Made by a program: the position numbers and the translations under genes. Positions 42,800 through 57,988 of a stretch of 64,000 bases of DNA are shown in pieces. The notes under the pieces are model-generated. The model was not told where the DNA came from and did no database searches. It saw only the letters and a list, made by a program, of their open reading frames with translations. The first letter of the stretch is position 1; the number at the start of each line of letters is the position of its first letter. This stretch comes from Dehalococcoidia bacterium (GTDB taxonomy: Bacteria; Chloroflexota; Dehalococcoidia; Lucifugimonadales; UBA1123): positions 1-64,000 of the forward strand of contig VXRN01000017.1 of assembly GCA_009838465.1 (NCBI GenBank). Direction: 5' to 3'.

Positions 42800-42920
42800 A
42801 GAAACATCCTCTGTTCAGACTGTATTCCTATACTATCACATCGGATTTCTAAGAAAAGTAATGAGCGAGGATATGAGCCTATCCCGTCTTAGTTGGTACT
42901 GAGCGTGGGCGCCAAAGTCC

Positions 42921-42978
42921 ATTCCCCCTTTGATGGGGGAAGGCTAGGATGGGGGTGACGACCCCGCCTACCAAACTG
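42921..42978. repeat. Repeat B relative, second flank of the TA pair
   Basis: TTCCCCCTTTGATGGGGGAA followed by GGATGGGGGTGACGACCCCG and CCTACCAAACTG. It is the same family as 41744-41828. Confidence 0.6.
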
Positions 42979-43033
42979 GGAGAGCATCCGTGGATACATC
43001 GTTCGCGCCTTAAAACAACCGGTCTCATCTCAA

Positions 43034-43121
43034 CCTTACAATCGGACGCATATAAACCTGACAATCAGACGCACCCTAAACTTACAATTGGACGATACCT
43101 AACCTGACAATTATCCGATAC
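43034..43121. repeat. Four degenerate 22-24 base tandem repeats
   Basis: Units begin at about 43034, 43057, 43081 and 43103, with the pattern CYTKACAATYGGACG followed by TAAA- or TAAC-type ends. The period matches about two helical turns. They lie in the gap upstream of the gene at 43234, so they could be operator sites or iteron-like. They are too short and too diverged for a CRISPR array. Confidence 0.55.
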
Positions 43122-43233
43122 CCCGGACCGTAATCTACGCCTTGACTGAGCACTGACAGTCTTGTACAACCAGCAAGGGGGAGCAACATGCTCCCCTATC
43201 CCTCCGAAGTACCCAGACAGAAAGGCATTGCGT

Positions 43234-44130
43234 ATGAAGTCATTCGAAGACTCCCAGATATTCACGAACGAGGATACATCCAAGCCTGAGAATAGGGTTA
43301 ACTTAGCCCTATTCAGCCTGATGCCGCAGGATTGGCTCCGCGAGTGGTTCTTGGAAAAGCTAAACCTGCCGCCGGATTCCATACTGTATCCTCCAACGAA
43401 TGAGCAAGGAGCGCGTCCGGATCTGAAGGTTGAGACGCCGGACGGTTCCACAACGGCTTGGATAGAAGTAGAACTCGGGACCAACGTGGAACAGATTGAG
43501 GACTACCGCAGTCGGTACCGTGAACCTATCAAATCGGTATGGGGCAGGCGTGACCATGGCGGCGATCTGAGCCTTGAGGAGATTCGCGATTTCCTGAGTA
43601 GGCGTGTCGGTTCCCTTCCACGGCAGACTGAAGTGAATGTCAGACATCTGAGGAAGCTCATCAAAGATGGATTGGATGGACATTCAGTATCTCAGGAACG
43701 AACTGAAGTATCTGAGAAAGTGCGCTGTCATCCATTCGTGGTCGGGTTGGAGGAACGACTAGGAGACAAGCTCAAATTTACTAGGGGAAGAATCAATCCT
43801 GGAGAACTCAAGGCGGACGCCATTATGGAAGATGGATTTTCATTACGGGCTTTCAGTCCTGTGTCGACGACAGGATCAGTTTTCCTACTGAACATACGGG
43901 GAGGAAGTCAACAAGCTAAGTTTCCAAATAAATTATGGCTTGAAAAATACCTCCCAGACGATAGATCTTCCGCCATCGAAGAATACGTGGCACTGCTGAA
44001 CGAAATAGGATTGAACATAGACACAGGGAAAACTAATGTGTATGCCCGCGGTTCTCTGTGCGTTGATGACGTTCTTCCATACTTGGACGACCTTGCCAAG
44101 TGCGTCCTCACGCTCGTTGACTCGGACTGA
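43234..44130 (+). CDS. Hypothetical protein, possible PD-(D/E)xK-like nuclease
   Basis: About 298 aa, not assigned to a family. A segment near residues 58-80 reads ARPDLKVETPDGS then TAWIEVELG, which has the D...ExE spacing of PD-(D/E)xK nucleases; this is weak evidence. The C-terminal half looks mixed alpha/beta. An in-frame TTG at 43162 would add 24 residues, but ATG 43234 has AAAGG 8 bases upstream and I prefer it. The four tandem repeats at 43034-43121 lie in its upstream region. It has no clear operon partner. Confidence 0.6.
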   Translation: MKSFEDSQIFTNEDTSKPENRVNLALFSLMPQDWLREWFLEKLNLPPDSILYPPTNEQGARPDLKVETPDGSTTAWIEVELGTNVEQIEDYRSRYREPIKSVWGRRDHGGDLSLEEIRDFLSRRVGSLPRQTEVNVRHLRKLIKDGLDGHSVSQERTEVSEKVRCHPFVVGLEERLGDKLKFTRGRINPGELKADAIMEDGFSLRAFSPVSTTGSVFLLNIRGGSQQAKFPNKLWLEKYLPDDRSSAIEEYVALLNEIGLNIDTGKTNVYARGSLCVDDVLPYLDDLAKCVLTLVDSD

Positions 44131-44187
44131 CATCAAGATGATATACGATGACCGTCAGGCTATCTCAGCCGCGCTTGGAGATAGAAT

Positions 44188-44664
44188 ATGTACAAAGCCA
44201 TTCTGCTTGATCTGAACTCCACTCTGTCCGAAAACTGGCGCAGTGTCGGCGTCGGCAGACACACCTCCGAGGACAAGATAAGGAACATCGAGCGATATCG
44301 TGCATGGTTGGCCGACTGGCTGCGCGGAGTTGACTGCAAGGTCTATATCTTCACCGTGCGCCCCGTTAGAACTCAGGAAGCGACGCTCGAAACCATCTCA
44401 AAGAGGTTGTCCTGGACGCCGGACGGCGCATACTTCAACGACACCGCCTTCACCGGCAACGACGCCGATAAAGTCAAATCCATACTTCTTGATCGCCTAA
44501 TGGACCAGACCGGCTTGAAGCCCGAAGACCTCTACGCATTCGAGTCCAATTCCCAAACCCGCGCTATGTACAACAGGCGAGGCGTCCAATGCCGCCGGAT
44601 AGGCGAACCTTCCCATTTGCCCCCAGTCGCCTGGTTCAGAAAAGGCGCTATGAAAGCTGACTGA
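44188..44664 (+). CDS. HAD-like phosphatase-fold protein
   Basis: A 158-aa protein with the order of HAD motifs. MYKAILLDLNSTLSEN at the N-terminus corresponds to motif I, but the second acidic residue is Asn (DLN instead of DxD). FTVRPVRTQ stands for motif II, and DADKVKSILLDRL with AFESNSQTR for motifs III/IV. Similar small HAD proteins occur in phages and near polynucleotide kinases. Phosphatase activity is uncertain because of the motif I change. ATG 44188 follows a weak ribosome site. It is probably a single gene. Confidence 0.6.
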   Translation: MYKAILLDLNSTLSENWRSVGVGRHTSEDKIRNIERYRAWLADWLRGVDCKVYIFTVRPVRTQEATLETISKRLSWTPDGAYFNDTAFTGNDADKVKSILLDRLMDQTGLKPEDLYAFESNSQTRAMYNRRGVQCRRIGEPSHLPPVAWFRKGAMKAD

Positions 44665-44787
44665 TGACTGAACTCCAATAGCCGACAGATTCCACGATCC
44701 AATCTTGCAATTGCCCTTTACACAACATATCTGATTCTGTAAACTACCCTAAACGAACATATATTCTCTGGAGCCGAACTCTCACAC

Positions 44788-45693
44788 ATGACAACCGCCG
44801 TCCTACAAGAAATAACTCCGCAGGAGCAACTCGCCAGAATCGTCCGCGAAGAAACCGATGGCGGACGAAGCATCGTCAGGTTCTTCAGGCAGGTCGTCGA
44901 AGGCGAACGCGACTCCGAAGGCTTCCAGCCCAACCACAAGATGGACTCGGCCAAAGAGCTCGTTAAGATCGGTCTATCGGAGTTTCAGGACTACATAGAC
45001 GCCAACGCCGCGCCTACAAAGCGACGCAAGTCCAGTAAGCCATCCCCGGACATCAACGAAATCTCTCGCGAAATACTGAAGGCGCGAGAAGAACTTGCAC
45101 AGTACGCAAGAGAACTCACCCAGGATGGCAGGACCGTCATCGAGATGTACTCAGAAGTGATGGACGGTCTGAGAAACGACGACGGCTTCAAGCCCCATCA
45201 CCGCATAGCCGCAGGCAAGGAACTCCTTCTGCGTGGCTTCGGACCCATATCAGCCTGGCCCGAACCCGTCTCGACAGACTGCAAGATCACAGACCATCAT
45301 CAAAATCAGACAAATCACGGTTCAGCCCACGCCTCCGAACCTCAGACCGAGACACATCCCACCCTGTCTCTCACCCCCACTGTCTCAGAGAATCTCTCGG
45401 ACGCGGTGGAAGCCTACGAAGAACAGGGTACGCTCAGGCAACTGTTGCCTCAGGAAATCCTGGACGTAGTGGACAGCGAAGACCCACTGGACGACTGCCC
45501 ATGCGCCATAGCCGAGTACGAAGGTAGGGACATCCCCTGCCCCGAAGACGAGGAATGTCCCTACTACGGCCTCGAATTCCCCAAGTTCACCGAAGAACAG
45601 AGGGCGAGAATCAAGGAAGAAGCCCTTCGCGGCCTCCAAATGCGTGCCGAAATGCTCTGGGGGATACCGAACCCGCCCGAAGACGACCCCTGA
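44788..45693 (+). CDS. Hypothetical protein with a duplicated ~50-residue domain
   Basis: A 301-aa protein I do not recognise. Two related segments, near residues 16-68 and 108-160, share the pattern DGR(S/T)(I/V)...(F/Y)...V..G.R...GF.P.H...AGKEL, for example EGFQPNHKMDSAKELVKIG and DGFKPHHRIAAGKELLLRG. Such segments recall small-terminase-like or DUF-type helical domains, but I cannot name one. The C-terminus is acidic with a Cys cluster (CPCAIAEYEGRDIPCPEDEEC) that could bind zinc. It stands alone before the convergent VapC-type gene. Confidence 0.65.
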   Translation: MTTAVLQEITPQEQLARIVREETDGGRSIVRFFRQVVEGERDSEGFQPNHKMDSAKELVKIGLSEFQDYIDANAAPTKRRKSSKPSPDINEISREILKAREELAQYARELTQDGRTVIEMYSEVMDGLRNDDGFKPHHRIAAGKELLLRGFGPISAWPEPVSTDCKITDHHQNQTNHGSAHASEPQTETHPTLSLTPTVSENLSDAVEAYEEQGTLRQLLPQEILDVVDSEDPLDDCPCAIAEYEGRDIPCPEDEECPYYGLEFPKFTEEQRARIKEEALRGLQMRAEMLWGIPNPPEDDP

Positions 45694-45741
45694 TCGCCGG
45701 CACCCAAAAACCAAAGACCCCGCATTAGAGGCCAGCTCAGG

Positions 45742-46182
45742 CTATACCATGCGTAGCGGGTCGCGTACAGGTAGCTCGGGAAACAGCGAAAAGTCTCTGT
45801 CCCTGGTTAGTAGCGCTTCTACCCCATGAGCCACGCAGATTGCCGCTATACGCACATCGTGGATAACGCCACCTGATACATGCGGCCTGTCTATGAATCT
45901 ATGCAGGATGTCGAGGAAATCGCCAGTCTCCCCAATAAGCCGGTTGGACGGTGAGTCAGCCCAAGCCGTCACCTGTTGCCAGGCTCGGTGGACCGGAGTA
46001 ATCCCGTCACCCCAGATACGCCTGTTGGTAACCACGCTTAGGAATTCATAGCAGCAGGGCCATGGTATAGCCCATGGAATATCATTCTCTGCCAGAGACG
46101 CAATTAGAGGCGCTGCCCGAGAATGGTACGGCGAATCCGCTCGATGAGCATACACCAGTATGTTGGTATCAACCGCAATCAC
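45742..46182 (-). CDS. PIN-domain toxin (VapC-type)
   Basis: A 146-aa PIN-domain ribonuclease. The metal-binding acids are all present: Asp in MIAVDTNILVYAH, Glu in CCYEFLSVV, Asp in VIHDVRIAAICVAHG, and Asp in LLTRDRDFSLF. The start is GTG and overlaps the antitoxin stop by 4 bases (GTGA), the standard tight coupling of vapBC pairs. Unlike the PIN protein at 41896, its active site looks intact. The pair lies immediately outside the left end of the 16-kb mobile element. Confidence 0.9.
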   Translation of the reverse strand: MIAVDTNILVYAHRADSPYHSRAAPLIASLAENDIPWAIPWPCCYEFLSVVTNRRIWGDGITPVHRAWQQVTAWADSPSNRLIGETGDFLDILHRFIDRPHVSGGVIHDVRIAAICVAHGVEALLTRDRDFSLFPELPVRDPLRMV

Positions 46183-46430
46183 GGTCGAGAACCATCGACG
46201 TAGATGATGTCGCGTAGCTCAGGCCAGGTGTAAGAAGCCAAGGGATCATGAATATCGGGGCCGCCGTAGCTGCGATCCGGAAGGACGTAACGCTCGGAGC
46301 GCGTCTCCTTCGACAGGACCAATCTGAGTCCTTCCTCGACCACCGCCCGGAGTGGGCGACGTGTTTCCTGCGCATGTCGCTTTGCTCTAGTCAACAGATC
46401 GTCATGGATGTCAAGCGTAGTTTTCATCAT
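46179..46430 (-). CDS. Antitoxin (VapB-type, ribbon-helix-helix)
   Basis: About 83 aa. The N-terminal MKTTLDIHDDLLTRAKRHA and RRPLRAVVEEGLRLVL form a ribbon-helix-helix DNA-binding unit. The rest, ending YTWPELRDIIYVDGSRP, should block the toxin. An open frame upstream to 46490 would run into the terminal repeat of the mobile element, so the start is at 46430 or 46427 (two adjacent Met codons). The element's insertion point is only about 45 bases upstream, so it probably altered this operon's promoter region. Confidence 0.86.
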   Translation of the reverse strand: MMKTTLDIHDDLLTRAKRHAQETRRPLRAVVEEGLRLVLSKETRSERYVLPDRSYGGPDIHDPLASYTWPELRDIIYVDGSRP

Positions 46431-46477
46431 ACCCATATTACCCATAAGATATAGTATGGTCAATACATATACATGAT

Positions 46478-46502
46478 TAGCGTGTTGCAAAACCCGGTCT
46501 GA
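46478..46502 (+). repeat. Left terminal inverted repeat of the element
   Basis: TAGCGTGTTGCAAAACCC followed by GGTCTGA. The inverted partner at 62603-62627 differs only at position 19 (G here, C there). The next bases, GTCTCAATAAG, match the sub-terminal part of the right end after an 11-base gap. The flanking ATGAT is at 46473-46477. Confidence 0.88.
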
Positions 46503-46827
46503 GTCTCAATAAGAAAATCAGGACAAGATTGGGAAGAATGAAACACCCCGCCTATTGGCGGGGTGTTCTCCCTACCTTGCCCTACCTAACCAGACCAGAA
46601 CCTACCAAAACCCCACCATGCGTCACCATGCCATGTTCAAGTCTCTCAATCCTGTCGGTGTTGTGCGTAAGTTGTCTTGCCGCAATCATTTTTTGTGAGT
46701 CGTCTAGGCGATGGCGGCGGGGATATGGGCGTAGTGGGATTGATATACCAAAGTACGCACATTCTACCATAAATCCCCATGTCCACATCGCTTTCAAGGC
46801 TAAATCAAGTCCTGTGTACCAAACGGA
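46503..46827. other. 325-base non-coding left margin of the element
   Basis: Apart from the sub-terminal TCTCAATAAG and the hairpin at 46542-46567, I see nothing in it. Open frames that cross it on either strand lack ribosome sites and recognisable sequence. Confidence 0.5.
46542..46567 (-). terminator. Terminator at the left margin
   Basis: AACACCCCGCC pairs perfectly with GGCGGGGTGTT across a 4-base loop. On the minus strand it is followed by TTTCATTCTT. It would stop leftward transcripts from the element before they reach vapBC. Confidence 0.75.
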
Positions 46828-47190
46828 CTATGACGAAACTAGGCCCTTGATGACCTCTATCCCCACTCCCTTGATAACTTCCAAGGGCACTGTACTAACG
46901 TTGTCCCCTAGTTTCTGTTTGACCTGTTCCCACACTGAGTCGTCACGTATCGCATCTAAGAAGTCGTGCCCTTCCCATGTCAGTCCTTGGATGGAGACCC
47001 AATATGTACCTCCGAGCGACCAATTGCCATTACCGTTAACGTATCTTTTGTTAGCAATCAACATATCAAGATGATAGTCAACTTGCTCCTCGCTAAAGCC
47101 TTCAATGTTTAGGTCGGGGGCTTCTTTAAGTGATTCCGTAGCTTCTATTCTAAGCAGGATACTACGCACTAACGACATGTCTCGCTTCAT
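46828..47190 (-). CDS. DUF2513-family protein
   Basis: A 120-aa protein with the hallmarks of DUF2513: MKRDMSLVRSILLRIE at the start, GFSEEQVDYHLDMLIANKRYV as a winged-helix-like core, and the conserved LTWEGHDFLDAIRDDSVWEQ segment near residues 70-89. DUF2513 proteins are common in prophages and mobile elements, and their function is unknown; a DNA-binding winged helix is plausible. It is the leftmost gene of the element, downstream of the TIR-like module on the same strand. Confidence 0.85.
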   Translation of the reverse strand: MKRDMSLVRSILLRIEATESLKEAPDLNIEGFSEEQVDYHLDMLIANKRYVNGNGNWSLGGTYWVSIQGLTWEGHDFLDAIRDDSVWEQVKQKLGDNVSTVPLEVIKGVGIEVIKGLVSS

Positions 47191-47239
47191 TTTTGTTCAG
47201 CCTTCTCCCTTTTTCCGTCTTGGGCTTCGCACCTAATGT

Positions 47240-47653
47240 TCAGCGTATCCACCACAGAACTAGATACACGACGGCTATCAGAGTGTGAGTGATAAAGACT
47301 GCGCGGGCGGCCACATACTGCATACGGGTCAGTGGCGGGTATATCCTCCGACCGCCTTTATCAATGCCGCTGTCCTCCGCTTCGTCGTTGAATGGCTGAC
47401 TCGGCAAGTCCTTTTCCATCGCCAGAATGATGTCGTACTTGACCTTGTTGATTTTGCTGTGAGCGTCCAGCAGGGCCAACCAGAGATATGAAACACCCAT
47501 GCCCGCCACCCCTACTAGGAAGTGATAGGGTTCTGTGAGCGGCAAGGCCAAGTGTCCCGCCAAGATAGCTAGATGAACCGGCACCATGTACCGATTTATC
47601 GCTTCCCGGCGGATACTGGTGTTCTCTGCCGTCTGGACGTAGGTTTGCCACAT
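47240..47653 (-). CDS. Three-helix membrane protein partner of the TIR-like protein
   Basis: About 137 aa. The N-terminal helix (WQTYVQTAENTSIRREAIN) is followed by two adjacent membrane segments near residues 22-62, a cytosolic loop with MEKDLPSQPF, and a third membrane segment at the end (VFITHTLIAVVYLVLWW). The pattern resembles the small 2TM/RipA-like (8xMP-type) membrane proteins that accompany TIR-like and nucleotide-signalling defence genes. A longer open frame reaches 47830, but ATG 47653 gives the family-like N-terminus and overlaps the end of the TIR-like gene (stop at 47670) by 17 bases or so in frame order, consistent with coupling. Confidence 0.7.
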   Translation of the reverse strand: MWQTYVQTAENTSIRREAINRYMVPVHLAILAGHLALPLTEPYHFLVGVAGMGVSYLWLALLDAHSKINKVKYDIILAMEKDLPSQPFNDEAEDSGIDKGGRRIYPPLTRMQYVAARAVFITHTLIAVVYLVLWWIR

Positions 47654-47669
47654 GGCAACCCGGTCGCTC

Positions 47670-48092
47670 CTATCGGTGTCCGGCAAGAAGCAACTCCAAG
47701 TTATTCCAAGTCCAGTTGTACATCTTGTCTGTGGACTTGGCCGATTTCGGCTTGACGCATTTCCTCTTTCTGTATCCCCGCAGGAGGAAGTAGGGCTTGT
47801 CGAGTTCTCGCGCAATCGTGATCTCTGCACTGACGCCAGATGCTTTGTCGGTGTGTTGTCCGCACATCACGATAACGACGCTGCACCGTTCTATGCGCCC
47901 CCGGGCCTCTTTCCGCCATTTGGATTGTGGCGCGGCCTCTTTCATTGAAAAGTCAGCTACATCGAAAGGTGAATTGTCGTTACGACTCTGTCCAATCAAA
48001 CCCTCTTTGAGTTGCAGGTCGTTGTCATAATCGAAGCTGACGAACACGTTTTGACGGCTATCGCTCACTTTACCTCTCCATCTAGGACTCAA
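47670..48092 (-). CDS. TIR-like (ThsB/DUF1863-like) protein
   Basis: A 140-aa single-domain protein of the TIR-like (MTH538/DUF1863) family. Conserved segments are RQNVFVSFDYDNDLQLKEGL near residues 13-32, VADFSMKEAAPQ near residues 45-56, RIERCSVVIVMCGQHTDKASG near residue 66, the catalytic-Glu-type segment VSAEITIARELDKPYFLLRG near residue 87, and YNWTWNNLELLL at the end. In Thoeris defence, ThsB of this family senses infection and makes a cyclic-ADP-ribose-type signal. No ThsA (SIR2-SLOG) gene is adjacent; the membrane protein downstream takes that position. Confidence 0.82.
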   Translation of the reverse strand: MSPRWRGKVSDSRQNVFVSFDYDNDLQLKEGLIGQSRNDNSPFDVADFSMKEAAPQSKWRKEARGRIERCSVVIVMCGQHTDKASGVSAEITIARELDKPYFLLRGYRKRKCVKPKSAKSTDKMYNWTWNNLELLLAGHR

Positions 48093-48160
48093 TCTCGATG
48101 CTTACTCCCCGCCGTCATATCAGACGACGGGGATACTGATGAATATGGACTACCTAACAA

Positions 48161-48343
48161 TTATTTCCGCGACCGCTCCCATTTCAAAGCAGTCGCACGG
48201 GTTACTCGTGGGCCAACGACTCGCATCCTGCCACGTCTGCCAGCGCGCCTATGCTCGCCAGCCCGACGCTTCGGGTTGTTCGTTATCCCCCGATACCCGT
48301 CCGGGTATGTGTAACGATAGGTGCTTCTTGGCTTTCTAGCCAT
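48161..48343 (-). CDS. Short GIY-YIG-like protein
   Basis: A 60-aa protein with YTYPDGYRGITNNPKRRAGEH, which resembles the YIG-R core of GIY-YIG nucleases (Y..GxTNNPxRRxxEH). It is the same pattern as the 138-aa protein at 61115-61531 (KYIGTTNNPRQRAVEH). It ends before the last helices of that paralogue, so it may be a truncated copy. GAGGGG stands about 7 bases ahead of the ATG. It lies just upstream of the TIR-like gene on the same strand. Catalytic ability is doubtful at this length. Confidence 0.55.
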   Translation of the reverse strand: MARKPRSTYRYTYPDGYRGITNNPKRRAGEHRRAGRRGRMRVVGPRVTRATALKWERSRK

Positions 48344-48366
48344 AGCGACACCCCTCTGCCTAGTCT

Positions 48367-48487
48367 CACCATAGTGGGCGGCTTCGACCTGGGTTCCATG
48401 TCAGAGAACCGAACCTTGCTTGAGACTTCACAGTTAGGCAGGTAGAATACCTGCCGCATTACGCTGTTGAGTCTCCCCACTATGGTG
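48367..48487. other. Paired inverted repeat enclosing a small hairpin
   Basis: CACCATAGTGGG (48367-48378) pairs perfectly with CCCACTATGGTG (48476-48487), about 100 bases apart. Inside lies GCAGGTAGAATACCTGC, a 7-bp hairpin at 48438-48454. The unit could be a structured RNA or leader ahead of the GIY-YIG/TIR genes on the minus strand. Confidence 0.4.
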
Positions 48488-48499
48488 GAGTTCAACCAA

Positions 48500-48533
48500 A
48501 AGGGCCTGCCGGACGGCAATCCAGCAGGCCCTT
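48500..48533. terminator. Rho-independent-type hairpin
   Basis: AAGGGCCTGC pairs with GCAGGCCCTT. On the minus strand TTTTGGTT follows, so it would end transcripts from the gene at 48719-48961 before the GIY-YIG/TIR operon. Confidence 0.65.
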
Positions 48534-48718
48534 CTCTGTTGACAAGATATTTGACTGTGTTAGTATGGTCTTGCATCGTGTTCTTCAAACTCTTTCGATG
48601 CACTTACCCCTTTAGGTTTGCCAGACCTTAAGGGGTCAACAATTTTCCCTCCGTCACAAATTAGCTGAGAAGCACAATTGTGTCAAGTCTCCGCAAACCG
48701 CGTGTTTGAGAATGTCCG

Positions 48719-48961
48719 TTATCGAGACTGCCCTAGATTTTGCCTTTCCTTATATTTGTCAATGGCGTACTCAATGGACGTGACCCACGCCTTCAACTCC
48801 TGACGTTCATCATCAGAGATATGAAAGTCGTCGTATAGCCTTTCAACGTTGTCTGCAAGCATGGCCTTGAAACGCTCGGAATATCTGAGGTCTTGCGAAT
48901 CCAAGTCAAGGGTTGCTACTGCCTTTCCGATGAGTAGAGTCATGTGCGTTTCAATGTCCAT
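48719..48961 (-). CDS. Hypothetical protein
   Basis: An 80-aa, all-helical, acidic protein of unknown role. Its pattern LIGKAVATLDLDSQ...F.AMLADNVERLYDD..ISDDERQELKAWV is loosely similar to the protein at 57192-57452 (AIGRAVLALDES...FVEVLYAEIEQIAQS..LSSSDYAELREL), so the two may be paralogues within the element. An imperfect 12-bp hairpin at 48606-48636 lies beyond its stop. Confidence 0.55.
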   Translation of the reverse strand: MDIETHMTLLIGKAVATLDLDSQDLRYSERFKAMLADNVERLYDDFHISDDERQELKAWVTSIEYAIDKYKERQNLGQSR

Positions 48962-49606
48962 GATGTAACTACTCCCCCCCGATTCTGGATTTGGTAGATT
49001 TTTGAGAAATCAGTCAGATTGTCCCCCATTCGGCCATGCGAGCGGTAGGTCTTTCTCTCGTAATGGTCGAATTCACCCCTGAAAACCCTTCGTGCTGGGA
49101 CGGGTCTCTCTGTGGCTTCTCCGCGCCACTATTACCAGCGTTCCGACGAAAAGCGGTCAGTTTCGGAAAATGCGGAATTTCGGCACAAGCTATTGTTTGA
49201 GACGCTGGAAATCTCTATGGTTAATAGTAGGTGTGTGTCAATCGCGTCCTGCGATGGACAAAGAGCAACGAGAAACCCCGCCCTACGGTCTGCAAACTAG
49301 AAGGCGGGGTTGAAACCAACAAGAAAGGTGAGTGAAGTCCGAAGCCCTTTCGAGAGAGGAACCTACTGGCATTGAGGCCCTTTCGTCGGGTGGCATCCCT
49401 TTAGTAAGGCGAGGCCCCCCTTTCTGTCCACCGCCGTCTCCGGCGGTTCGAGTGGTGCGTACTGACACACACCCCTTTCTGTCGAGAAATACCATACCTA
49501 GGTGGCGAGCGTTCTGTCAACGATTCCGGCGTTATCAAAATCGGGCCGCCCGCCGGAACGCATTTGGAACGCTTAAAACACCAGAGAAGAAAGAGAGGTA
49601 AGACCG
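48962..49606. other. 645-base gap inside the element
   Basis: No convincing gene. AACCCCGCC (49274-49282) pairs with GGCGGGGTT (49303-49311), a GC-rich hairpin like those at 46542 and 61064. An 89-codon frame at 49332-49601 is Pro/Arg-rich with no ribosome site and is not called. Confidence 0.45.
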
Positions 49607-50044
49607 ATGACGACCGCGGGGGATGTAAGGGAATACCTGTTGGGGATAGTTGCCGAAACCGACGCGGAGATTGCGCGTCTGACCGAGACCCGGGACGCCG
49701 CGCTCAGGCTGATACAGGAACTTGACGAAAGGGAGTCGCTTGGGACGGCTGAGGAAGCGCGGAAGGGTCCGGCGGTCAACACAGGTCAGGTTAAGGAACC
49801 CACGTACAAACAGCAGGTCGCACAGGCCATCGTAGAGGTTCTGACTGAGGAACAGCCGTTGCACAGAGAAGTAATACGCGAACGGGTAGAGGCCAAGGGC
49901 ATTCCGCTGACCGCCCGGAAGCCCATCGACACCATTGCCCAACGTCTGACTAGCGATGACCGATTCGTGAACGTAGTGCGGGGCAAGGGGATTTGGGCAT
50001 TGCGCGGATACGAGTCCCAGAACCCTCTACCGGCGGTTGCCTAG
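49607..50044 (+). CDS. Winged-helix (HARE-HTH-like) protein with N-terminal coiled coil
   Basis: A 145-aa protein. Residues 1-50 (VAETDAEIARLTETRDAAL) should form a coiled coil. Residues 63-133 (TYKQQVAQAIVEVLTEEQPL through GKGIWALRGYE) look like a winged helix of the HARE-HTH/RpoE-delta type, in which the ending WALR is characteristic. It is likely a DNA-binding protein and might regulate or assist the transposase, whose gene begins 284 bases downstream on the same strand. GAGAGG precedes the ATG. Confidence 0.68.
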   Translation: MTTAGDVREYLLGIVAETDAEIARLTETRDAALRLIQELDERESLGTAEEARKGPAVNTGQVKEPTYKQQVAQAIVEVLTEEQPLHREVIRERVEAKGIPLTARKPIDTIAQRLTSDDRFVNVVRGKGIWALRGYESQNPLPAVA

Positions 50045-50144
50045 TGCGGAGATAAGTATGCAGTAGAGGAAACAAATCAAGGGAGGAATAATGTCTGCAA
50101 TCGGCGGATTCGTAGCAAAAAGCGTTGCTCGTATATACACATAC

Positions 50145-50153
50145 TGCTATAAT
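50145..50153 (+). promoter_or_regulatory. Extended -10 promoter for the transposase
   Basis: TGCTATAAT within ATACTGCTATAATAG, identical in its nine bases to the fabF element at 31075. It implies a ~170-base untranslated leader with two hairpins ahead of the transposase. Confidence 0.55.
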
Positions 50154-50193
50154 AGAACAGTAGTACCAATACAGGGAATTATCAGGACTTTCA

Positions 50194-50314
50194 GGGTTGC
50201 CCGCGTCTCAATCTTCGACAGCCCCGACAGTCTGATAATCGAGACCCCTGTGAAGCACTGACTACAAAGAATCGGGGTCGCCCGCGTCTTACTTCTGGCG
50301 ACCCCTGTGAAGTA
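50194..50314 (+). promoter_or_regulatory. Tandem hairpin units in the transposase leader
   Basis: Two related units lie in direct order: 50194-50257 (GGGTTGCCCGCGTCTCA to CCCCTGTGAAGCAC) and 50274-50314 (GGGGTCGCCCGCGTCTTA to CCCCTGTGAAGTAC). In the second, GGGGTCGCC pairs perfectly with GGCGACCCC. The ribosome site AGGAGG follows only 11 bases on, so the fold could control transposase translation. Confidence 0.55.
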
Positions 50315-50328
50315 CAGGAGGCCGTTGC

Positions 50329-51747
50329 ATGACCAGTCCCGTAACTCTTTTTCATTGTACGTCGCCTTGTTGTTTGGGGCAAGTGCCGGTCGCCGCGCCG
50401 ACCGTAAGATCCCTGGACCCTGAGCCGATAACGCGATATGACAGCATAGCGATGATATTGGACTCGATTTGTATGTTGCCGTCCGTCAAGGACTTGCTTT
50501 CGGAAATTGAAGCTCCCCGCCGCCGTACAGGTCGCAAGGGCTACTCGCCGGTGTCCATGCTCCGCGCCTTTCTAAGCCGGTTCTTGACTGGAAGCAAGAA
50601 TACTCAGGCGTTCATACGGGAGTTGAAGCGGTCGGAGGGTCTGCGTATCGCGTGTGGGCTGGTGAACGGCGTACCGCATAAGTCCACATTCAGCAGATTC
50701 TTCGCAAAGCTGGCCGAGAATACGGACGCGCTTGAAATCGCTCAGGTCGAATTGGTCAACGCAATGAGGAAGTACCTGCCAGACCTGGGGCTGAACCTTG
50801 CGATAGATGCGACAGATATTCCAGCGTATGCAAACCTGAGAAGACAGAAGGAAAGCATTCCCAGAGAACAGCGTACAGACGTTGATGCCGATTGGGGATA
50901 CCGAACGCCGAAATCGAAGTACGGCGGCGGCACGGGGAAGCGCGGCGGCGGTGCGAAGATGCGCGACAAGAACGGCGACGGCCACTTCGACCTGTTTTGC
51001 GGCTTCAAAGTTCACACGGTATGTGACACCAAGACGGGCCTGCCGCTGGGGTACATCGTTCTCGATGCCCGTCAGAGTGAATCAACCGAACTGCCCAACG
51101 TACTCGACAAGATACTCGGTATGCACTCCGACTGGCTAAAGCCGCACTATCTGATGGGCGACAAAATCTTCGACGGTGAGCCGAGCCACGACGCGGTTAT
51201 GAAGCGCGGGATAGTCCCGATTTTCGACATCAAAAAGCCCGCGTCCAAAGGCCCGACTAAACACCCCAACCGGCACAAGGGCGGGCTGTACGGCCCCGAT
51301 GGTTCTCCCACCTGCCCGGACTCCGAACACACGGTTATGGAGTATATACGAACCGTTCGGGAGTCTGACGGCGCGATTTACCACGAATACCGATGCAACC
51401 CAAATGGCTGTCCCCTGAAAAGCCGGTCGTCGGGCGCGATGTTGTATTGCAACCGCCGCGAGATTCACCGTGAAAAGGTGGAGGAAGGCAACTACTGGAT
51501 GCAGGGTCCGGTGGCGCGGGCGAATCCATTTTGGAAGGAACTGCATGACGAGCGGCCAGAGGTTGAGAGGCTGTTCAGTCGGCTAAAGGATAGTCGCAGT
51601 CTGGAAGCACTGACCTATCGCGGTCTGCCCAAGGTTCGGGTACACGTCGGGCTGTCGGTACTGGGCTATCTCGGTACAGCCCTGGGGCGCGTGAGAGAGG
51701 GCAGGATAGACCTAATCAGGACAATGACGCTGGAAGATGAATTCTAA
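50329..51747 (+). CDS. DDE transposase, IS1182/IS5-like (DUF772 plus DDE domain)
   Basis: A 472-aa transposase. The N-terminal DUF772-type region (GYSPVSMLRAFLSRFLTGSK, RIACGLVNGVPHKSTFSRFF) precedes a DDE RNase H-like domain. Probable acids are Asp in LAIDATDIPAYA, Asp in HYLMGDKIFDGE, and Glu in ERPEVERLFSRLKDSRSLE. A Cys-containing insert (PDSEHTVMEYIR, CNPNGCPLKS) is typical of this group. AGGAGG precedes the ATG. The gene appears intact. No separate insertion-sequence ends were found near it, so the 25-bp element ends are its likely substrate. Confidence 0.9.
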   Translation: MTSPVTLFHCTSPCCLGQVPVAAPTVRSLDPEPITRYDSIAMILDSICMLPSVKDLLSEIEAPRRRTGRKGYSPVSMLRAFLSRFLTGSKNTQAFIRELKRSEGLRIACGLVNGVPHKSTFSRFFAKLAENTDALEIAQVELVNAMRKYLPDLGLNLAIDATDIPAYANLRRQKESIPREQRTDVDADWGYRTPKSKYGGGTGKRGGGAKMRDKNGDGHFDLFCGFKVHTVCDTKTGLPLGYIVLDARQSESTELPNVLDKILGMHSDWLKPHYLMGDKIFDGEPSHDAVMKRGIVPIFDIKKPASKGPTKHPNRHKGGLYGPDGSPTCPDSEHTVMEYIRTVRESDGAIYHEYRCNPNGCPLKSRSSGAMLYCNRREIHREKVEEGNYWMQGPVARANPFWKELHDERPEVERLFSRLKDSRSLEALTYRGLPKVRVHVGLSVLGYLGTALGRVREGRIDLIRTMTLEDEF

Positions 51748-51766
51748 GCGAGAAAGGACGGAGAAC

Positions 51767-52102
51767 GTGAACGATTTCGAGGTACTGAGTCGGCTGGTGG
51801 AAGCGTTCGGAGACCGCTTTCGGACAACACGCCGATACTACCAGTTCCACTTGCGTGTCGGAGGGACTATCTACATCAGACGGCGGTTTCCGGCGGGGTT
51901 CGAGAACCTAGCCCGAATCCGTGATACGGCCATAGAGAACTTCCCGAACAGTCAGGAATTGGGCTGGTATCTGGAGGGAGAGGATGTGCCATGCGAGCCG
52001 AACGGTCGTTGGGATGAGTATATGGTCGGCCCTGAGCATATCGAGGATGTAATCGGCATCATGCTTGCAGGTCTTGACTTGACTCAAGACTGGGCCGCGT
52101 AG
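51767..52102 (+). CDS. Small protein encoded just after the transposase
   Basis: About 111 aa, unknown. The sequence FGDRFRTTRRYYQFHLRVGG followed by IYIRRRFPAGF is basic and probably beta-rich; the second half is acidic. GTG 51767 has AAAGGA 9 bases upstream. An ATG at 51737 inside the transposase is also open and would overlap it by 11 bases. Tight linkage to the transposase suggests a transposition accessory role, but nothing in its sequence proves that. Confidence 0.6.
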   Translation: MNDFEVLSRLVEAFGDRFRTTRRYYQFHLRVGGTIYIRRRFPAGFENLARIRDTAIENFPNSQELGWYLEGEDVPCEPNGRWDEYMVGPEHIEDVIGIMLAGLDLTQDWAA

Positions 52103-52243
52103 CCGCGAGAGTCCTGTCAGAACGGATCCTGGACTCTCCGGCGGCACCACCCTAAAGTGGGTGGAGAAATAAAAGCGACCGCCGGGCGGTCAGACTGCCC
52201 AGCGACCAGTTCTCTTTGATGCTCACATGGAGAATTCCGCGCT

Positions 52244-52597
52244 TCAATCCGTCTCCCTGCCGTCGCCGTCGACGACCTCCCCGATCCAAGGCATGAACAA
52301 CTCCATCGGGTTTATCGTAGGGCTGTCCTGTCCACTCTCTTTCGCTTTACCGTAGCCGCTGAGCATTGTGTCCATAGTATTACAGGACTCACCCATCATA
52401 GCGATGATGAAGTCCAGATCATCAGACTCGAACTTGCCGGTTCTTTCTAGCGACCCACGCACGGCATCTATCGCGCCACCGTCGCTGAAAACGTCCGACT
52501 CAATTAGCCCTTTGTCGTACAGTGCGGCGGCAAGTTTGAAGAGACTTACGTGCATCGCCAATGACGACGCCAGAAAAAGCCGAAATTCATTTCCCAT
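52244..52597 (-). CDS. Hypothetical protein, last gene of the protease operon
   Basis: A 117-aa, mostly helical, acidic protein (LFLASSLAMHVSLFKLAAALY near the start, FIIAMMGESCNTMDTML in the middle). No family is recognised. It starts 10 bases after the 79-aa gene stop and completes a five-gene minus-strand operon around the trypsin-like protease. Confidence 0.6.
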   Translation of the reverse strand: MGNEFRLFLASSLAMHVSLFKLAAALYDKGLIESDVFSDGGAIDAVRGSLERTGKFESDDLDFIIAMMGESCNTMDTMLSGYGKAKESGQDSPTINPMELFMPWIGEVVDGDGRETD

Positions 52598-52607
52598 ATC
52601 GTTCCCC

Positions 52608-52847
52608 CTAGGCGTTCTCTTGCTGGTCTGCCTCTACTACACTAGCGGAAGACACAGCTTGCTCGAATTGCTCTCGAATCTCACTCCAACTACTCCCAAA
52701 TGGCGCGACTTGAACCGACACGTTGGCTGCCACGCCGTCATCGGACGGAATACTCTCAATCACATAGATGAGCAGGTATTCGTTCCCGTCGACACCTGTG
52801 ATTCGCTCTGTTTTCAGTGGTATGGGTGCCATCGCTGGTCTCCTCAT
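52608..52847 (-). CDS. Hypothetical small protein, protease operon
   Basis: A 79-aa protein; LKTERITGVDGNEYLLIYVIES suggests a beta-rich N-terminal half, and the C-terminal half is an acidic helix with EIREQFEQAVSSASVV. Its start overlaps the stop of the preceding gene by 4 bases (ATGA). Met6 is an alternative start. Confidence 0.58.
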   Translation of the reverse strand: MRRPAMAPIPLKTERITGVDGNEYLLIYVIESIPSDDGVAANVSVQVAPFGSSWSEIREQFEQAVSSASVVEADQQENA

Positions 52848-53089
52848 TCGGTTACATCTGGTGGAAAGGCTAGTTGGGCCAGTGATCGGGCAGTTGACGC
52901 GGCAGACGCCAGCCGCGCTATTTCGGCCAACTCTGAACGCGGCAGAGACCCCATTTCTTTGCCTTCATCCTCAGTCTTAACTAGATACGCTCGCAGGGCA
53001 TCCTCCGCCAACATAGCGGCGGTCTCCGCCCGCATTTTGCCATCGTCTGAGAGTAGCCTAAAAACGTAAACGTTGAGTCTGGTGGACAT
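52844..53089 (-). CDS. Hypothetical small helical protein, protease operon
   Basis: An 81-aa protein, mainly helical after a short strand (RLNVYVFRLLSDDG). Alanine-rich helices follow (AEDALRAYLV, ASAASTARSLAQLAF). It overlaps the protease stop by one base (TAATG) and the next gene by 4 bases, so its translation is coupled to both. It could be an inhibitor or partner of the protease; there is no direct evidence. Confidence 0.58.
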   Translation of the reverse strand: MSTRLNVYVFRLLSDDGKMRAETAAMLAEDALRAYLVKTEDEGKEMGSLPRSELAEIARLASAASTARSLAQLAFPPDVTE

Positions 53090-53799
53090 TATCGCGCTCC
53101 TTCGATGATGTCAGTTACGACGCCAATGTCGGCAAACCTTATAAGGCCCGATGGCTCTGAATAAGCAAATTCGCTGTCTTCCTCAAGTTCGCCCGTTGTT
53201 GTGTTCTTTCGCAAGAGGTTCCTTATCACTCCCTCCCGATGTGTGATGATTCCGGCGATTGTCCATCCTGTGGAGGTGGGGAGTAGCATCGCTCCACCAG
53301 AGAATCCGGCGTTCACGTAGCCCCCGGTGTAGTGGATTCTTGCGGCGGCATTGGTCTCAGGCCGGACATATGCGGAAACCAGTGTCGTTAGCGGCACAGG
53401 AAGCCCGTCGATTTCCGCAACGTGTGAAATCTCCCGCAGGTCGGTAATGGCTGGGAACCCCATCGCTCGCCCCACTCCTCCTAAAATGACGTGTCCCAGA
53501 CCATATCGGGGGGTTAGCGGCGATAGATTGGCTGTCGACGTTTTCAGGACGGCGACATCGGCCTCTCTATCTGTACCTACGGTCTCCCATTGGCAGGATG
53601 CCCACTCGCTGTATCGTCTAACCAAGGGCTGAAATCCACACGGCTCCGCTACGTGTAAGGCGGTAGCCAGATACTCTTGGTCTTGGTGGCGAATCGCCAC
53701 TCCACTGCCCACGGGAACGGCGACCCCGGCACTTACGGCGTGTCCCAACCATAGGACTGATAGCAAGAACTCCGAGGTGGGTACAGTGTTTTCTGTCAT
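53089..53799 (-). CDS. Trypsin-like serine protease
   Basis: About 236 aa with a chymotrypsin-fold protease domain. The triad is readable: His in YLATALHVAEP near residue 48, Asp in TDREADVAVLKTS near residue 80, and Ser in VNAGFSGGAMLLP near residue 170, with GSGVAI ahead. No signal peptide is seen, so it is probably cytosolic. ATG 53799 with AGAGGAG just upstream is chosen over an open start at 53874. It follows a small membrane protein gene and precedes three overlapping small genes. Trypsin-like domains occur as effectors in bacterial conflict systems. Confidence 0.83.
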   Translation of the reverse strand: MTENTVPTSEFLLSVLWLGHAVSAGVAVPVGSGVAIRHQDQEYLATALHVAEPCGFQPLVRRYSEWASCQWETVGTDREADVAVLKTSTANLSPLTPRYGLGHVILGGVGRAMGFPAITDLREISHVAEIDGLPVPLTTLVSAYVRPETNAAARIHYTGGYVNAGFSGGAMLLPTSTGWTIAGIITHREGVIRNLLRKNTTTGELEEDSEFAYSEPSGLIRFADIGVVTDIIEGAR

Positions 53800-53822
53800 A
53801 CTCTCCTCTATCCTAATTCCAC

Positions 53823-54017
53823 TTACAGAAATATCGGCGTATGTCTCAGAATCACAATCACACTGACGCCCCATATAGCGTAAACTGCCAAGACACTCGG
53901 AACCGACGGATGGGCGCGTGGACGAAACTCAGAAGCATAGAAGCCGAAAAGTAATGCAAGAAGAATCCCAAGTCCTGCTATAATTATCTCGACTAGTCCG
54001 GAATCAAAGGACATCAT
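53823..54017 (-). CDS. Small two-helix membrane protein, first gene of the protease operon
   Basis: A 64-aa protein with two membrane segments, near residues 9-27 (EIIIAGLGILLALLFGFYA) and 41-60 (VLAVYAIWGVSVIVILRH). GGGAG stands 8 bases before the tandem ATGs. The protease starts 24 bases after its stop. A membrane anchor or pore beside a protease is a layout known in toxin-like systems. Confidence 0.65.
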   Translation of the reverse strand: MMSFDSGLVEIIIAGLGILLALLFGFYASEFRPRAHPSVPSVLAVYAIWGVSVIVILRHTPIFL

Positions 54018-54062
54018 TGTGAACTCCCTTCACGTCCTGAAAGTCTTGTCGGGTTGGTCGCT

Positions 54063-54100
54063 GACCGTTGGATGTTTGCGTCATCCAACGGTCTTTTTAT
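54063..54100 (+). terminator. Perfect terminator without an upstream plus-strand gene
   Basis: GACCGTTGGATG pairs with CATCCAACGGTC (12 bp) and is followed by TTTTTATT on the plus strand. The genes to its left run the other way, so the transcript it ends is unknown: a small RNA from the 54018-54062 region, an antisense RNA to the protease operon, or an attenuator ahead of 54203. Confidence 0.75.
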
Positions 54101-54202
54101 TGTACTGGATTTTCCCGTTTGGCACCAGAAACACGGCCCATAAGACTGTCCGGTTCGTGTATATTCTAGTAGTGAAAACTGGTCAATTCGGAGTCTGACG
54201 CG

Positions 54203-55081
54203 GTGTACCCTGACGATGTGAAAATGCTGAGGTTGGAGCAGTCCGAGTACCTGATTCCCACTGCGGACGCCCCAATCCTTGAAAGCCTTTTGCGTGGACG
54301 CAGACCGCCCGTCGATTACAGCGTCAAGCCGCTCCCGCCACCGCAAGACCCGCTGGCCGCCGAGCGCACGGCTGAGATTGAGGACGCGGTATCTCAGATG
54401 CCCTACGACGACGGCGACACATTGCCGGAAGGCAGTTACGCCTTTGACAAGGGCGCGTTGCGCCGAACCGGACCCGCCCAAGCGAAAATTGTCTGGCACG
54501 GAACAGCCGCCCCGACAGACACAGCCATTGACCTAGAACCACGCGCTCCGATGGTGGACGGTCGGGAGCATCTTCGGGGAGTCGCCGCTATCTACACCAC
54601 CAGCGAACCGCTAATCGCACAGGATGTAGCCTTTGACCGATGGCGCAGGGAGCGCGACCGCGGCAGGGGGAATGAACAAAGTTCCCAACTCTACCAAGCG
54701 GTGGTCACGCCCAGCGAGACGGCTGAGTTGGGCGATTGTACGGACGCCGACGCCGTGGAGACTGCAATCGAGTCGGGGGCGGATACAGTCGAATGTCCGG
54801 ATTGGATAACGCCGGGCGGAAAGGCCGTGCCGGAGACCATCGTGCTGAATGAGGACGCCCTTCATGTCGCCCGCGCCTACCAAATCGACCAGATCCCCGG
54901 TAAGGACGTATCGGAAGCGGTGGAAGAGACGGAACAGGCGTTACGCTCAGACAAGAGGATTGGGCCGTCAGTAAGGCGTCCCAGAGGAATGCCGCGATTC
55001 ACGCGGTTCAAAGACCTGCCAGCGAATCCACGGAAGCGAAAGGGGAACAAGGGGCATCCGTTTCTACGGAATGGAAGATGA
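54203..55081 (+). CDS. Putative ADP-ribosyltransferase-like protein
   Basis: A 292-aa protein with the pattern of the H-Y-E class of ADP-ribosyltransferases: IVWHGTAAPTD near residue 97 (His), GVAAIYTTSEPLIAQDVAF near residue 128 (Tyr and following helix), and KAVPETIVLNEDALHVARAY near residue 212 (Glu). The segment LYQAVVTPSETAELGD between them fits the fold. The basic tail (RKRKGNKGHPF) may bind nucleic acid. Start GTG 54203 is used; ATG 54224 is possible. It could be a toxin or a phage-type modifier. Family assignment is by eye. Confidence 0.55.
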   Translation: MYPDDVKMLRLEQSEYLIPTADAPILESLLRGRRPPVDYSVKPLPPPQDPLAAERTAEIEDAVSQMPYDDGDTLPEGSYAFDKGALRRTGPAQAKIVWHGTAAPTDTAIDLEPRAPMVDGREHLRGVAAIYTTSEPLIAQDVAFDRWRRERDRGRGNEQSSQLYQAVVTPSETAELGDCTDADAVETAIESGADTVECPDWITPGGKAVPETIVLNEDALHVARAYQIDQIPGKDVSEAVEETEQALRSDKRIGPSVRRPRGMPRFTRFKDLPANPRKRKGNKGHPFLRNGR

Positions 55082-55231
55082 TGTGCGCCCCCGTGCTATA
55101 TCCCACACGACTCCCCGTTGACTTATTCCACTCATCCGTCCCGGGAGACGGATTTCAGTCTATCGCTTGGTTGCTGGCCGCGGACTGGATACCGCGGGCG
55201 GCAGGGCACATCTGAATTGTAGCATACCCGC

Positions 55232-55396
55232 TTACTGAGACTGCCCCGATTCGTCATCCTCAGCAGCCCCCCGCCGAAATTGGCGCAAAGTTCTGCCCAG
55301 GGCGTTAGCGATAACCGGCAACTTAGCGAGTCCGAACAGTAACACCAGCACGACCACGATGATGACAAGTTCCACAGGCCCTAATCCAAGAAACAT
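55232..55396 (-). CDS. TatA/E-like Sec-independent translocase subunit
   Basis: A 54-aa protein, MFLGLGPVELVIIVVVLVLL followed by FGLAKLPVIANALGRTLRQF, with the classic TatA layout: N-terminal membrane helix, Phe-Gly hinge, Leu-Pro and an amphipathic helix, then a short acidic tail (AEDDESGQSQ). AGGAG stands 8 bases ahead of the ATG. It is the last gene of a three-gene operon with two other membrane proteins inside the mobile element. No tatC is nearby, so it may use host TatC or act as a pore on its own. Confidence 0.82.
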   Translation of the reverse strand: MFLGLGPVELVIIVVVLVLLFGLAKLPVIANALGRTLRQFRRGAAEDDESGQSQ

Positions 55397-55401
55397 GAAA
55401 C

Positions 55402-56118
55402 CTACTCCTGTCGCTCAAGAACTGACGACGTGTTATAGCGAGCCTCTCGTACCCCCGCGAGTCCGGCGACCAACTGACGATACCCCGATATATCGAACAC
55501 AGCGCGGGCCGGTTCGGAACCTCCGACCCGAATCTCAAGTAGGTCGCTGTCGTTCATACTCTCGGACAATCTAAGGCTTGCCCCGACAGTAGGCGGCGCA
55601 ACCCATGTATCTCCGCTTCCGTGCCACCTGACCGCCATCCATTGCTCCGTCTGTTCGACTGGCATTTGGCCGTCCAGTCCGATGCAAACGGTGACCGTCG
55701 TCTCGCCCGACTCATCATCCACAGGAACGATGCCGGACGCCCAAGTGAACGTACACGACACATAAACGAGATAGTCCACGTCGTCCTCGTACTGTGCGAG
55801 TAACGTGGCCCCCTGCCCCGATGCTACGGTCGGTTCATGCGAATCGAGTCCGAGAACGGGTTTATCTTCAACATAGAATCGGTAATGCCAACCCGGGGGA
55901 ACCGGCATGAACCACGTTGGAATACGTGCGCCCGTGCGTCTGCGGGTCATCGCCACGACCCACAGAATCAGTGTCAGGGAGACCATTCCACACGCCGCCC
56001 ACAACATCCATTCGACGTTACCGACTATCCCGACCAGAACGCAGAACAGTATCAGCACAGACAGCGCGAATTGCAGAGTGCGGTGTATATCCTCTGCGGA
56101 GTCGCTTTCGTCACGCAT
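55402..56118 (-). CDS. Membrane protein with cytosolic C-terminal domain
   Basis: A 238-aa protein with two membrane segments near residues 15-57 (TLQFALSVLILFCVLVGIVG, WMLWAACGMVSLTLILWVV), then about 175 residues that appear beta-rich (PPGWHYRFYVEDKPVLGL, YLVYVSCTFTWASG). No family is recognised. The tatA-like gene starts 5 bases after its stop, and another membrane gene lies 27 bases upstream. Confidence 0.65.
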   Translation of the reverse strand: MRDESDSAEDIHRTLQFALSVLILFCVLVGIVGNVEWMLWAACGMVSLTLILWVVAMTRRRTGARIPTWFMPVPPGWHYRFYVEDKPVLGLDSHEPTVASGQGATLLAQYEDDVDYLVYVSCTFTWASGIVPVDDESGETTVTVCIGLDGQMPVEQTEQWMAVRWHGSGDTWVAPPTVGASLRLSESMNDSDLLEIRVGGSEPARAVFDISGYRQLVAGLAGVREARYNTSSVLERQE

Positions 56119-56145
56119 GGCAAAACCCCCTTGAATACTTTGAAC

Positions 56146-56706
56146 TCACTGACTTACGGGAAACCGCTGTGACCGGACTATCCACGCGGGTTCGTAGTCT
56201 CCGGCCAGCACAGACGAGTAAGAGACAGTCGCGCCCAGCGCGGGGAGGACTTCACTGCTCAATGTCCAAAGTGAAAAGTCGAGAAGATAACATCGCTCGC
56301 TGTACGACTCCCGACAACCGCTTGCCGCATACGCTTCGCGTACAGCCGACGAGTGAATTTCAAGGTCTGTGGGAGCTGGGCCGAGCGACGCCGTTATGCG
56401 GTTCATGGCGGCGTCCGGAGTCTCACCCGTGTTCGGAGTGATGTATCTGGTGACGTAGGCGTTCGTGCGCTCATACAGCACGGCGAGAACGGGGTTGTCG
56501 GGTGTCCGGCTGTCGGTGTCCCATAAGGATGCCAGATACCATGTGAGGTATCGTTCTGAGCGATGCGGCGGTTCGGTCTGGCGGATATTATCGGCTTCGG
56601 CTTTTGGGTGAGTCGCGTCGTGGAGGTATCCGAGGTACAAGATTCCGACGACCAACCCGAACTCTAGGCAGACACATAGCAGCACAAAGGCTAGAAACTT
56701 ACGCAC
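56146..56706 (-). CDS. Single-pass membrane protein
   Basis: About 186 aa. The N-terminal membrane helix (FLAFVLLCVCLEFGLVVGIL) is followed by an extracytoplasmic part with paired cysteines (SGCRESYSERCYLLDF). GTG 56706, 7 bases behind GGGGG, puts the helix at the N-terminus; an open frame extends to 56796. It heads the three-gene membrane operon that ends in the TatA-like gene. Its function is unknown. Confidence 0.6.
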   Translation of the reverse strand: MRKFLAFVLLCVCLEFGLVVGILYLGYLHDATHPKAEADNIRQTEPPHRSERYLTWYLASLWDTDSRTPDNPVLAVLYERTNAYVTRYITPNTGETPDAAMNRITASLGPAPTDLEIHSSAVREAYAASGCRESYSERCYLLDFSLWTLSSEVLPALGATVSYSSVLAGDYEPAWIVRSQRFPVSQ

Positions 56707-57191
56707 GAAAGCGTCCCCCGTATCGGTTCGTGACTCAGACCGCGAGTATTGACTGACTACCGAGAGTCCAGTCCATGCCGAGAACGTCCAAGGCATGACT
56801 CCGCCACTAGGGGCAGGGGATGATGAAATTGTGAACCGAACATTGGTAGCGCAGATAAGCTACCACAGACCTGCACCTGACACAATAATGTTGCCAGTCG
56901 AAATTCGGGAAAGATACGAACGGAATTTAGATTCATCCGTTGTCGAGGAAGGAATTTTGTGCTAGTTTTGTTTCATGCTACCAATGTTCGGTCAAGATTC
57001 GGCTATTTGCACAGAGAGTCAAGGACGCTGGGCGCACTTCGCGCCCCCGCGTGGTCTCTGTGTGAACGAGCGTTGGTAGCACTGCGCCCATGTCCCCTAT
57101 TCCACAAGGGGGCTTTTCGCGCTCGTCGGTACAACCCAATGAGAAATCCTGCCGAGTAGCGGGGTTGTGTTCACAAGTAAAAGAGGTGAAG
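56707..57191. other. Regulatory-looking gap between divergent operons
   Basis: No gene. CCGAACATTGGTAGC (56836-56850) and GCTACCAATGTTCGG (56977-56991) are perfect 15-bp inverted repeats, and a third core, GTTGGTAGC, lies at 57072-57080. Between them is a cruciform-prone block at 57011-57061, in which ACAGAGA pairs with TCTCTGT outside GGGCGC/GCGCCC. The layout suits operator sites controlling both flanking operons. Confidence 0.55.
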
Positions 57192-57452
57192 ATGATGAAT
57201 GATGATTATGTCGCACAGTCTGTTGTAGCACTCCGAGACTTGGCTATTGGCAGAGCAGTTCTAGCCCTAGACGAGTCCCGCGGAGATAGGCTTCCAATCG
57301 GCCCTGACGTTCAGAGCCGTAAGTTCGTTGAAGTCTTGTACGCAGAGATTGAACAAATTGCTCAATCTCGTCGTCTGTCATCTTCCGATTACGCAGAGCT
57401 TCGGGAGTTGACGGATGGACTAGCGAACACTGTTGAGAATCTTCGGATATAG
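57192..57452 (+). CDS. Hypothetical protein
   Basis: An 86-aa helical protein (start ATG 57192 behind AGAGGTG). The segment AIGRAVLALDES is loosely like LIGKAVATLDLD of the gene at 48719-48961, and both continue with an F...L helix and an acidic S-[DS]-[DE] helix; they may be paralogues. Nothing indicates a function. It precedes the tandem Nudix genes on the same strand. Confidence 0.58.
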   Translation: MMNDDYVAQSVVALRDLAIGRAVLALDESRGDRLPIGPDVQSRKFVEVLYAEIEQIAQSRRLSSSDYAELRELTDGLANTVENLRI

Positions 57453-57970: not shown

Positions 57971-57988
57971 CGCGGACCCGGGGTCGGA

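Follow-up and report, generated by a model that had tools for sequence, protein, structure and literature searches.

The window (64,000 nucleotides; positions 1-64,000 of contig VXRN01000017.1 from assembly GCA_009838465.1, a Dehalococcoidia bacterium in the Chloroflexota) contains adjacent genes for a small TIR protein and, directly downstream on the same strand, a small membrane protein (Table 1). For the TIR gene, the listed open reading frame (47670-48092) opens at TTG 48092, which is a mechanical extension. We place the start at GTG 48068 instead, because GGAGAGG, which resembles a ribosome-binding site, lies just before it. (In a relative with an 86%-identical TIR, the start is likewise just before SRQNVF, and is preceded by GGAGGG.) The membrane gene can also be extended, up to 47830, which would give a 196-amino-acid reading frame; we rejected this start as another mechanical extension, as homology opens at about ATG 47653. 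This ATG is 16 nucleotides past the TIR stop codon. The two genes had been described in the initial annotation as coupled. Their translation probably is, because the AGGAG of the membrane gene overlaps the stop codon of the TIR gene.

Table 1. Features in and around the TIR-8xMP pair.
Feature	Position	Strand	Remarks
~20 kb genomic island carrying the pair	42859..62661	.	three congeners lack it at the corresponding chromosomal position
DUF2513 gene	46828..47190	minus	Pfam E 1e-25; downstream, outside the conserved pair
8xMP membrane protein gene	47240..47653	minus	PF24838; 137 aa; three predicted membrane helices; proposed effector
Codons of invariant Arg-Arg (R15-R16)	47606..47611	minus	near the start of 8xMP helix 1
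AGGAG, ribosome-binding-like site of the 8xMP gene	47667..47671	minus	overlaps TIR stop TAG 47670-47672
TIR gene	47670..48068	minus	ThsB_TIR, PF08937; 132 aa from GTG 48068
Codon of invariant Glu (E82)	47823..47825	minus	predicted catalytic residue in the pocket of the TIR
GGAGAGG, ribosome-binding-like	48073..48079	minus	before TIR GTG 48068; same arrangement in relative L034
DDE transposase	50329-51744		inside the island

The first gene had been called a ThsB-type TIR from its conserved segments, and profile searches agree. The protein matches Pfam's ThsB_TIR (PF08937) with E = 2e-7 and 31.8 bits (the cut-off is 21.2), and it matches PADLOC's models for ThsB (E = 6e-6). The AlphaFold2 model (pLDDT 92.8) is similar to PDB:8fz9 (Z = 16.8, rmsd 2.2 over 125 residues) and to ThsB itself (PDB:6lhy; Z = 14.8, rmsd 1.9 over 115 residues). 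A profile built from an alignment of 37 TIR sequences retrieves ThsB1, EcThsB, and the B. cereus TIR 8fz9 from PDB. The invariant residues in that alignment are S11 and E82, and E82 aligns with the glutamate of ThsB's WVRYE motif and also with 8fz9. The initial annotation had made its reading depend on a catalytic glutamate, and the position is kept in all 37 TIRs. The modelled structure thus has a TIR fold with the pocket glutamate, and we predict that the protein cleaves or cyclizes NAD+.

The second protein belongs to Pfam's 8xMP family (PF24838; E = 3e-15, 56.6 bits against a cut-off of 30, residues 2-131), so both proteins of the pair score above the cut-offs of their families. It had been described as a three-helix membrane protein, and this description holds: in the AlphaFold2 model (pLDDT 89.6), helices span residues 2-36, 43-80, and 108-136, and the hydropathy peaks (22-40, 44-62, and 118-136) give three membrane stretches. 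From the predicted topology, the charged stretch of about 50 residues between the last two membrane segments is probably cytosolic. We modelled the protein as a monomer, and an octameric assembly comes from the Pfam name alone. Across 29 8xMP proteins, including the one in the window, R15, R16, W58, and E80 are invariant. The window protein is short (137 amino acids, compared to about 170) and has just 25% or so identity to most of the others; together with the form from a congener, it makes up a long branch in the comparison. Being short and divergent, it could be altered.

Little else resembles this protein. Sequence and fold searches of PDB gave generic helical bundles and no solved relative, and searches of viral proteins gave nothing beyond such bundles. 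We found no recognizable ligand-binding domain in it, there were no matches to 8xMP among the INPHARED phages, and no model in PADLOC 2023 matched the membrane protein. In a profile comparison, the ABC transporter YheH did match (E = 4e-4), but over one helical stretch only, which we attribute to similarity between helices.

We also considered what adjoins the pair. The absence of ThsA, which the initial annotation had remarked on, was borne out: no gene with SIR2/SLOG or macro domains is present among the adjacent genes that we scanned. A search of the genome for STALD gave no matches, but the control genomes gave none either. Caspase-like genes (PF00656) are absent both from beside the window's TIR and from the draft genome, in a search that did detect its positive control. 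We rejected the DUF2513 gene and the VapBC-like genes as components of the system, as only the TIR and 8xMP genes make up the block that is conserved with a congener.

The pair lies on a genomic island of about 20 kb, because the genes that flank 42.86-62.66 kb nearly adjoin each other in three congeners (they are 0.9-1.5 kb apart in G001, G002, and G003). The island also carries VapBC-like, HNH_5, and NUDIX genes, many unannotated genes, and a weak match to LmuA at 53092-53874 (PADLOC, E = 1e-4). (Outside of the island, at 38631-38749, 41740-41838, and 42312-42471, the window has short stretches that recur dozens of times in this genome and its congeners, with about 67-100% identity; by their sequences these are dispersed repeat families.) The distribution of the pair within the genus is patchy, with 2 of 4 genomes having it. 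It recurs in one of the three congeners, at a different chromosomal place, and the DNA similarity between the window and that congener (L034) extends over the pair and no further. Between these two genomes, the TIR gene has pS = 0.55 and pN = 0.057, and the 8xMP gene has pS = 0.88 and pN = 0.18. Because pN is far below pS for both genes, both are kept by purifying selection.

The initial annotation had staked its reading on whether the two genes occur together elsewhere, and they do so in many unrelated genomes. Among 301 Chloroflexota genomes, 5 of the 27 8xMP genes that score above the cut-off have a TIR (PF08937) immediately upstream in the same orientation, and the domain matches are 132-248 nucleotides apart. 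If TIRs were placed uniformly, we would expect about 0.002 such cases (taking about 155 places for TIRs and assuming that the genomes average 3 Mb). When we searched with 8xMP alone, 7 of the 9 viral contigs had an upstream TIR, as did 10 of the 17 distinct loci on plasmids (a number that includes a TIR-NB-ARC-WD40 protein from Rhizobium), and four viral contigs were recovered independently by the TIR query and by the 8xMP query. Pairs are found in Chloroflexota, Pseudomonadota, Bdellovibrionota, Planctomycetota, Cyanobacteriota, Actinomycetota, haloarchaea, and viral contigs such as L118, and the gene order and strand are constant across phyla. Distances among the TIRs are correlated with distances among their 8xMP partners (Mantel r = 0.48, p = 0.0005). 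At three loci (L008, L009, and L041), at least two TIRs surround a single 8xMP gene, which is reminiscent of Thoeris, where one thsA has a cluster of several thsB genes around it (PMC7272460).

Could the two genes be neighbors by chance, with no joint function? Genes for defense and mobility tend to cluster, so adjacency by itself is cheap. But the enrichment survives even if 100-fold clustering is allowed for (P = 5e-6), the order and strand are the same across phyla, and the DNA that is shared with the congener, in another chromosomal place, is exactly the pair. We consider chance to be extremely improbable.

A related concern is that the pair might be a stress or housekeeping regulator instead of a defense system. 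A role in phage defense is, after all, what we infer, and 8xMP occurs without TIRs as well: with 5 of 27 Chloroflexota genes paired and a separate clade without TIR neighbors, 8xMP is not exclusively a partner of TIRs. Nevertheless, the TIR is of the ThsB type, the pair is patchily distributed and sits on a 20 kb island, and its relatives are found on plasmids and on prophage-like contigs. (In the prophage-like contigs, judging the genes by eye, the pair follows lysis-type genes in L118 and precedes terminase-type genes in L107.) A regulator outside of defense therefore seems very unlikely to us.

Several other loci came to light during these searches. A second clade of 8xMP, with the motif DRRQT, occurs in other Chloroflexota with no TIR adjacent (L050, at 1426-1953 and 2002-2514; L053; L057; and L059). 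At some of these loci, the 8xMP gene comes after small-protein genes, and the product of one of these is weakly SLOG-like; this is perhaps a parallel nucleotide-linked pairing. On plasmid pRL22b6 of Rhizobium leguminosarum (L032), a gene for a TIR-NB-ARC-WD40 protein (310-3957) is followed directly by an 8xMP gene (3959-4417), which is a candidate membrane effector for a bacterial TIR-NLR-like protein. Just downstream of the pairs in two viral contigs are genes that look TIR-like or DUF4062-like by eye (5006-5509 in L102 and 4871-5731 in L108); the one in L102 had no matches in Pfam. Finally, elsewhere in the same genome as the window (L137; G000:C51:6500-18500), a PF08937 TIR follows a different membrane protein of 146 amino acids (5465-5905 and 6207-6596, both on the plus strand). 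This membrane protein has no Pfam match. At nine or more further loci in Chloroflexota, its homologs lie beside TIRs, and several of these loci are arranged as TIR-membrane-TIR. The idea that this Dehalococcoidia family is a distant form of 8xMP was not supported (hhalign probability of 0.2%).

The strongest clue to the role of 8xMP comes from a switch of partners among the TIRs. In a clade of 32 TIRs, the partner is 8xMP in 19 cases and a PF00656 caspase-like gene in 12, and the remaining TIR has a caspase nearby. The tree requires five changes of partner, and at least two of these are forced by well-supported branches, so there were at least two switches and probably five. Trees in which all of the caspase-linked TIRs group together are rejected (p = 0.024), as are trees that group all of the 8xMP-linked TIRs (p = 0.037). 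A caveat is that we ran these tests after seeing the labels and that the alignment has 117 columns, so we view them as moderate evidence. The exchange of 8xMP and caspase within one TIR clade is new here. In type IV Thoeris, the TIR makes N7-cADPR, which activates a caspase (PMC12847820). The caspase-linked TIRs of this clade are arranged as in type IV, so beside the other TIRs, 8xMP most likely takes the effector's seat of a Thoeris-like system. The initial annotation had suggested a membrane effector by analogy, and the alternation of partners within the clade makes the case for an effector stronger than that analogy did.

The order of events could also be reversed, so that 8xMP detects an entering phage or a damaged membrane and turns on the TIR through contact, and the TIR kills the cell by depleting NAD+. 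NADase TIRs that act in this way are known from defense (PMC12847820). Also, 8xMP adjoins different types of TIRs, including TIR-NB-ARC-WD40, and the co-divergence of the TIRs and 8xMP is as compatible with a physical complex as with a signal. Yet a caspase-like protease replaces 8xMP in the same clade of TIRs, and the protease of type IV is an effector that acts downstream of the signal, which makes the reversed order unlikely.

Or 8xMP might be neither effector nor sensor, but a membrane anchor, a regulator, or a self-protection protein for the TIR. It is small and lacks a recognizable ligand-binding domain, and the window's form is short and divergent, which would suit such a role. However, beside close relatives of the TIR, this position is held by an effector protease; and if 8xMP were for self-protection, it would be expected in the caspase operons too, but we found no 8xMP in the operons of caspase-linked TIRs. 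On balance, this is quite unlikely, and less likely than the reversed order.

With 8xMP as the effector, we propose that the pair is a mobile two-gene module for abortive infection that resembles Thoeris. By analogy to Thoeris, the TIR protein would sense a phage cue and would convert NAD+ into an ADP-ribose-type nucleotide signal. The signal (or, less likely, direct contact) would then switch a multimer of 8xMP in the inner membrane, and the switched 8xMP would leak or depolarize the membrane, which would stop the infected cell and abort the infection. The first candidate for the signal is a molecule like N7-cADPR, because the caspases of type IV Thoeris respond to N7-cADPR. We think that this scheme is somewhat more probable than all of the alternatives together; within it, catalysis by the TIR, the identity of the signal, the direction of signaling, and the formation of a pore are the parts that we infer, along with the role in phage defense.

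A broader idea, which is tentative and more doubtful than the module itself, is that all TIRs of the clade might make the same signal (probably N7-cADPR or something close to it), with the protease and 8xMP as interchangeable responders. 8xMP would then be a previously unrecognized nucleotide-gated membrane effector, both for stand-alone TIRs and for a bacterial TIR-NB-ARC-WD40 protein. If the proposed module is right, a family that we know here by its Pfam name only would be an immune membrane effector that ranges from Chloroflexota to haloarchaea, and TIR immune enzymes would be shown to keep the enzyme and exchange the machine that it drives, be it a protease or a membrane protein, and the specificity of TIR signals could be tested directly by exchanging effectors between natural pairs. 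Plant TIR-NLRs act through membrane channels, and TIR-NB-ARC-WD40 with 8xMP would be a parallel to them, offering a small bacterial model of signaling from a TIR-NLR to a membrane channel.

How does the pair compare to known systems? Because each of the defining effectors was sought beside the TIR and was absent, it is not Thoeris of type I, II, or IV. It is similar to type I (a ThsB TIR with a SIR2-SLOG ThsA) in its PF08937 TIR and the fold match to 6lhy, and some relatives of the pair have several TIRs around one partner, as in type I; but it lacks the SIR2-SLOG gene, and the partner is a three-helix membrane protein. Type II (a TIR with a TM-macro ThsA and His-ADPR as the signal) joins a TIR to a membrane effector, and the pair joins one to a candidate membrane effector, but the window's membrane protein is a PF24838 member that lacks a macro domain. 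(Within PF24838, it is a member by its score, yet it is short and divergent.) As to type IV, the same clade of TIRs (about 43-56% identical to the window's TIR) lies beside PF00656 caspase-like genes, whereas in the window the effector's seat holds 8xMP and not a protease. This likeness is one of gene layout and not a direct comparison to the published TIR from type IV.

CBASS and Pycsar use small nucleotide-gated membrane proteins to end infections, an idea that the proposed scheme shares. Unlike those systems, the pair has no cyclase or CD-NTase, and the presumed maker of the signal is the TIR.

Our literature search, whose scope did not extend to the original reports of Thoeris types II and IV, found no paper that joins 8xMP or PF24838 to a TIR, and PF24838 was not named there by its Pfam name or its accession. 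The numbering of the types implies a type III, and a description of its effector was absent from the literature that we found, so the TIR-8xMP pair may already have a name. In the broad sense of Thoeris, a TIR has a co-encoded partner, and across phyla we found 8xMP or a caspase directly beside the TIR. On present evidence, the pair appears to work like Thoeris.
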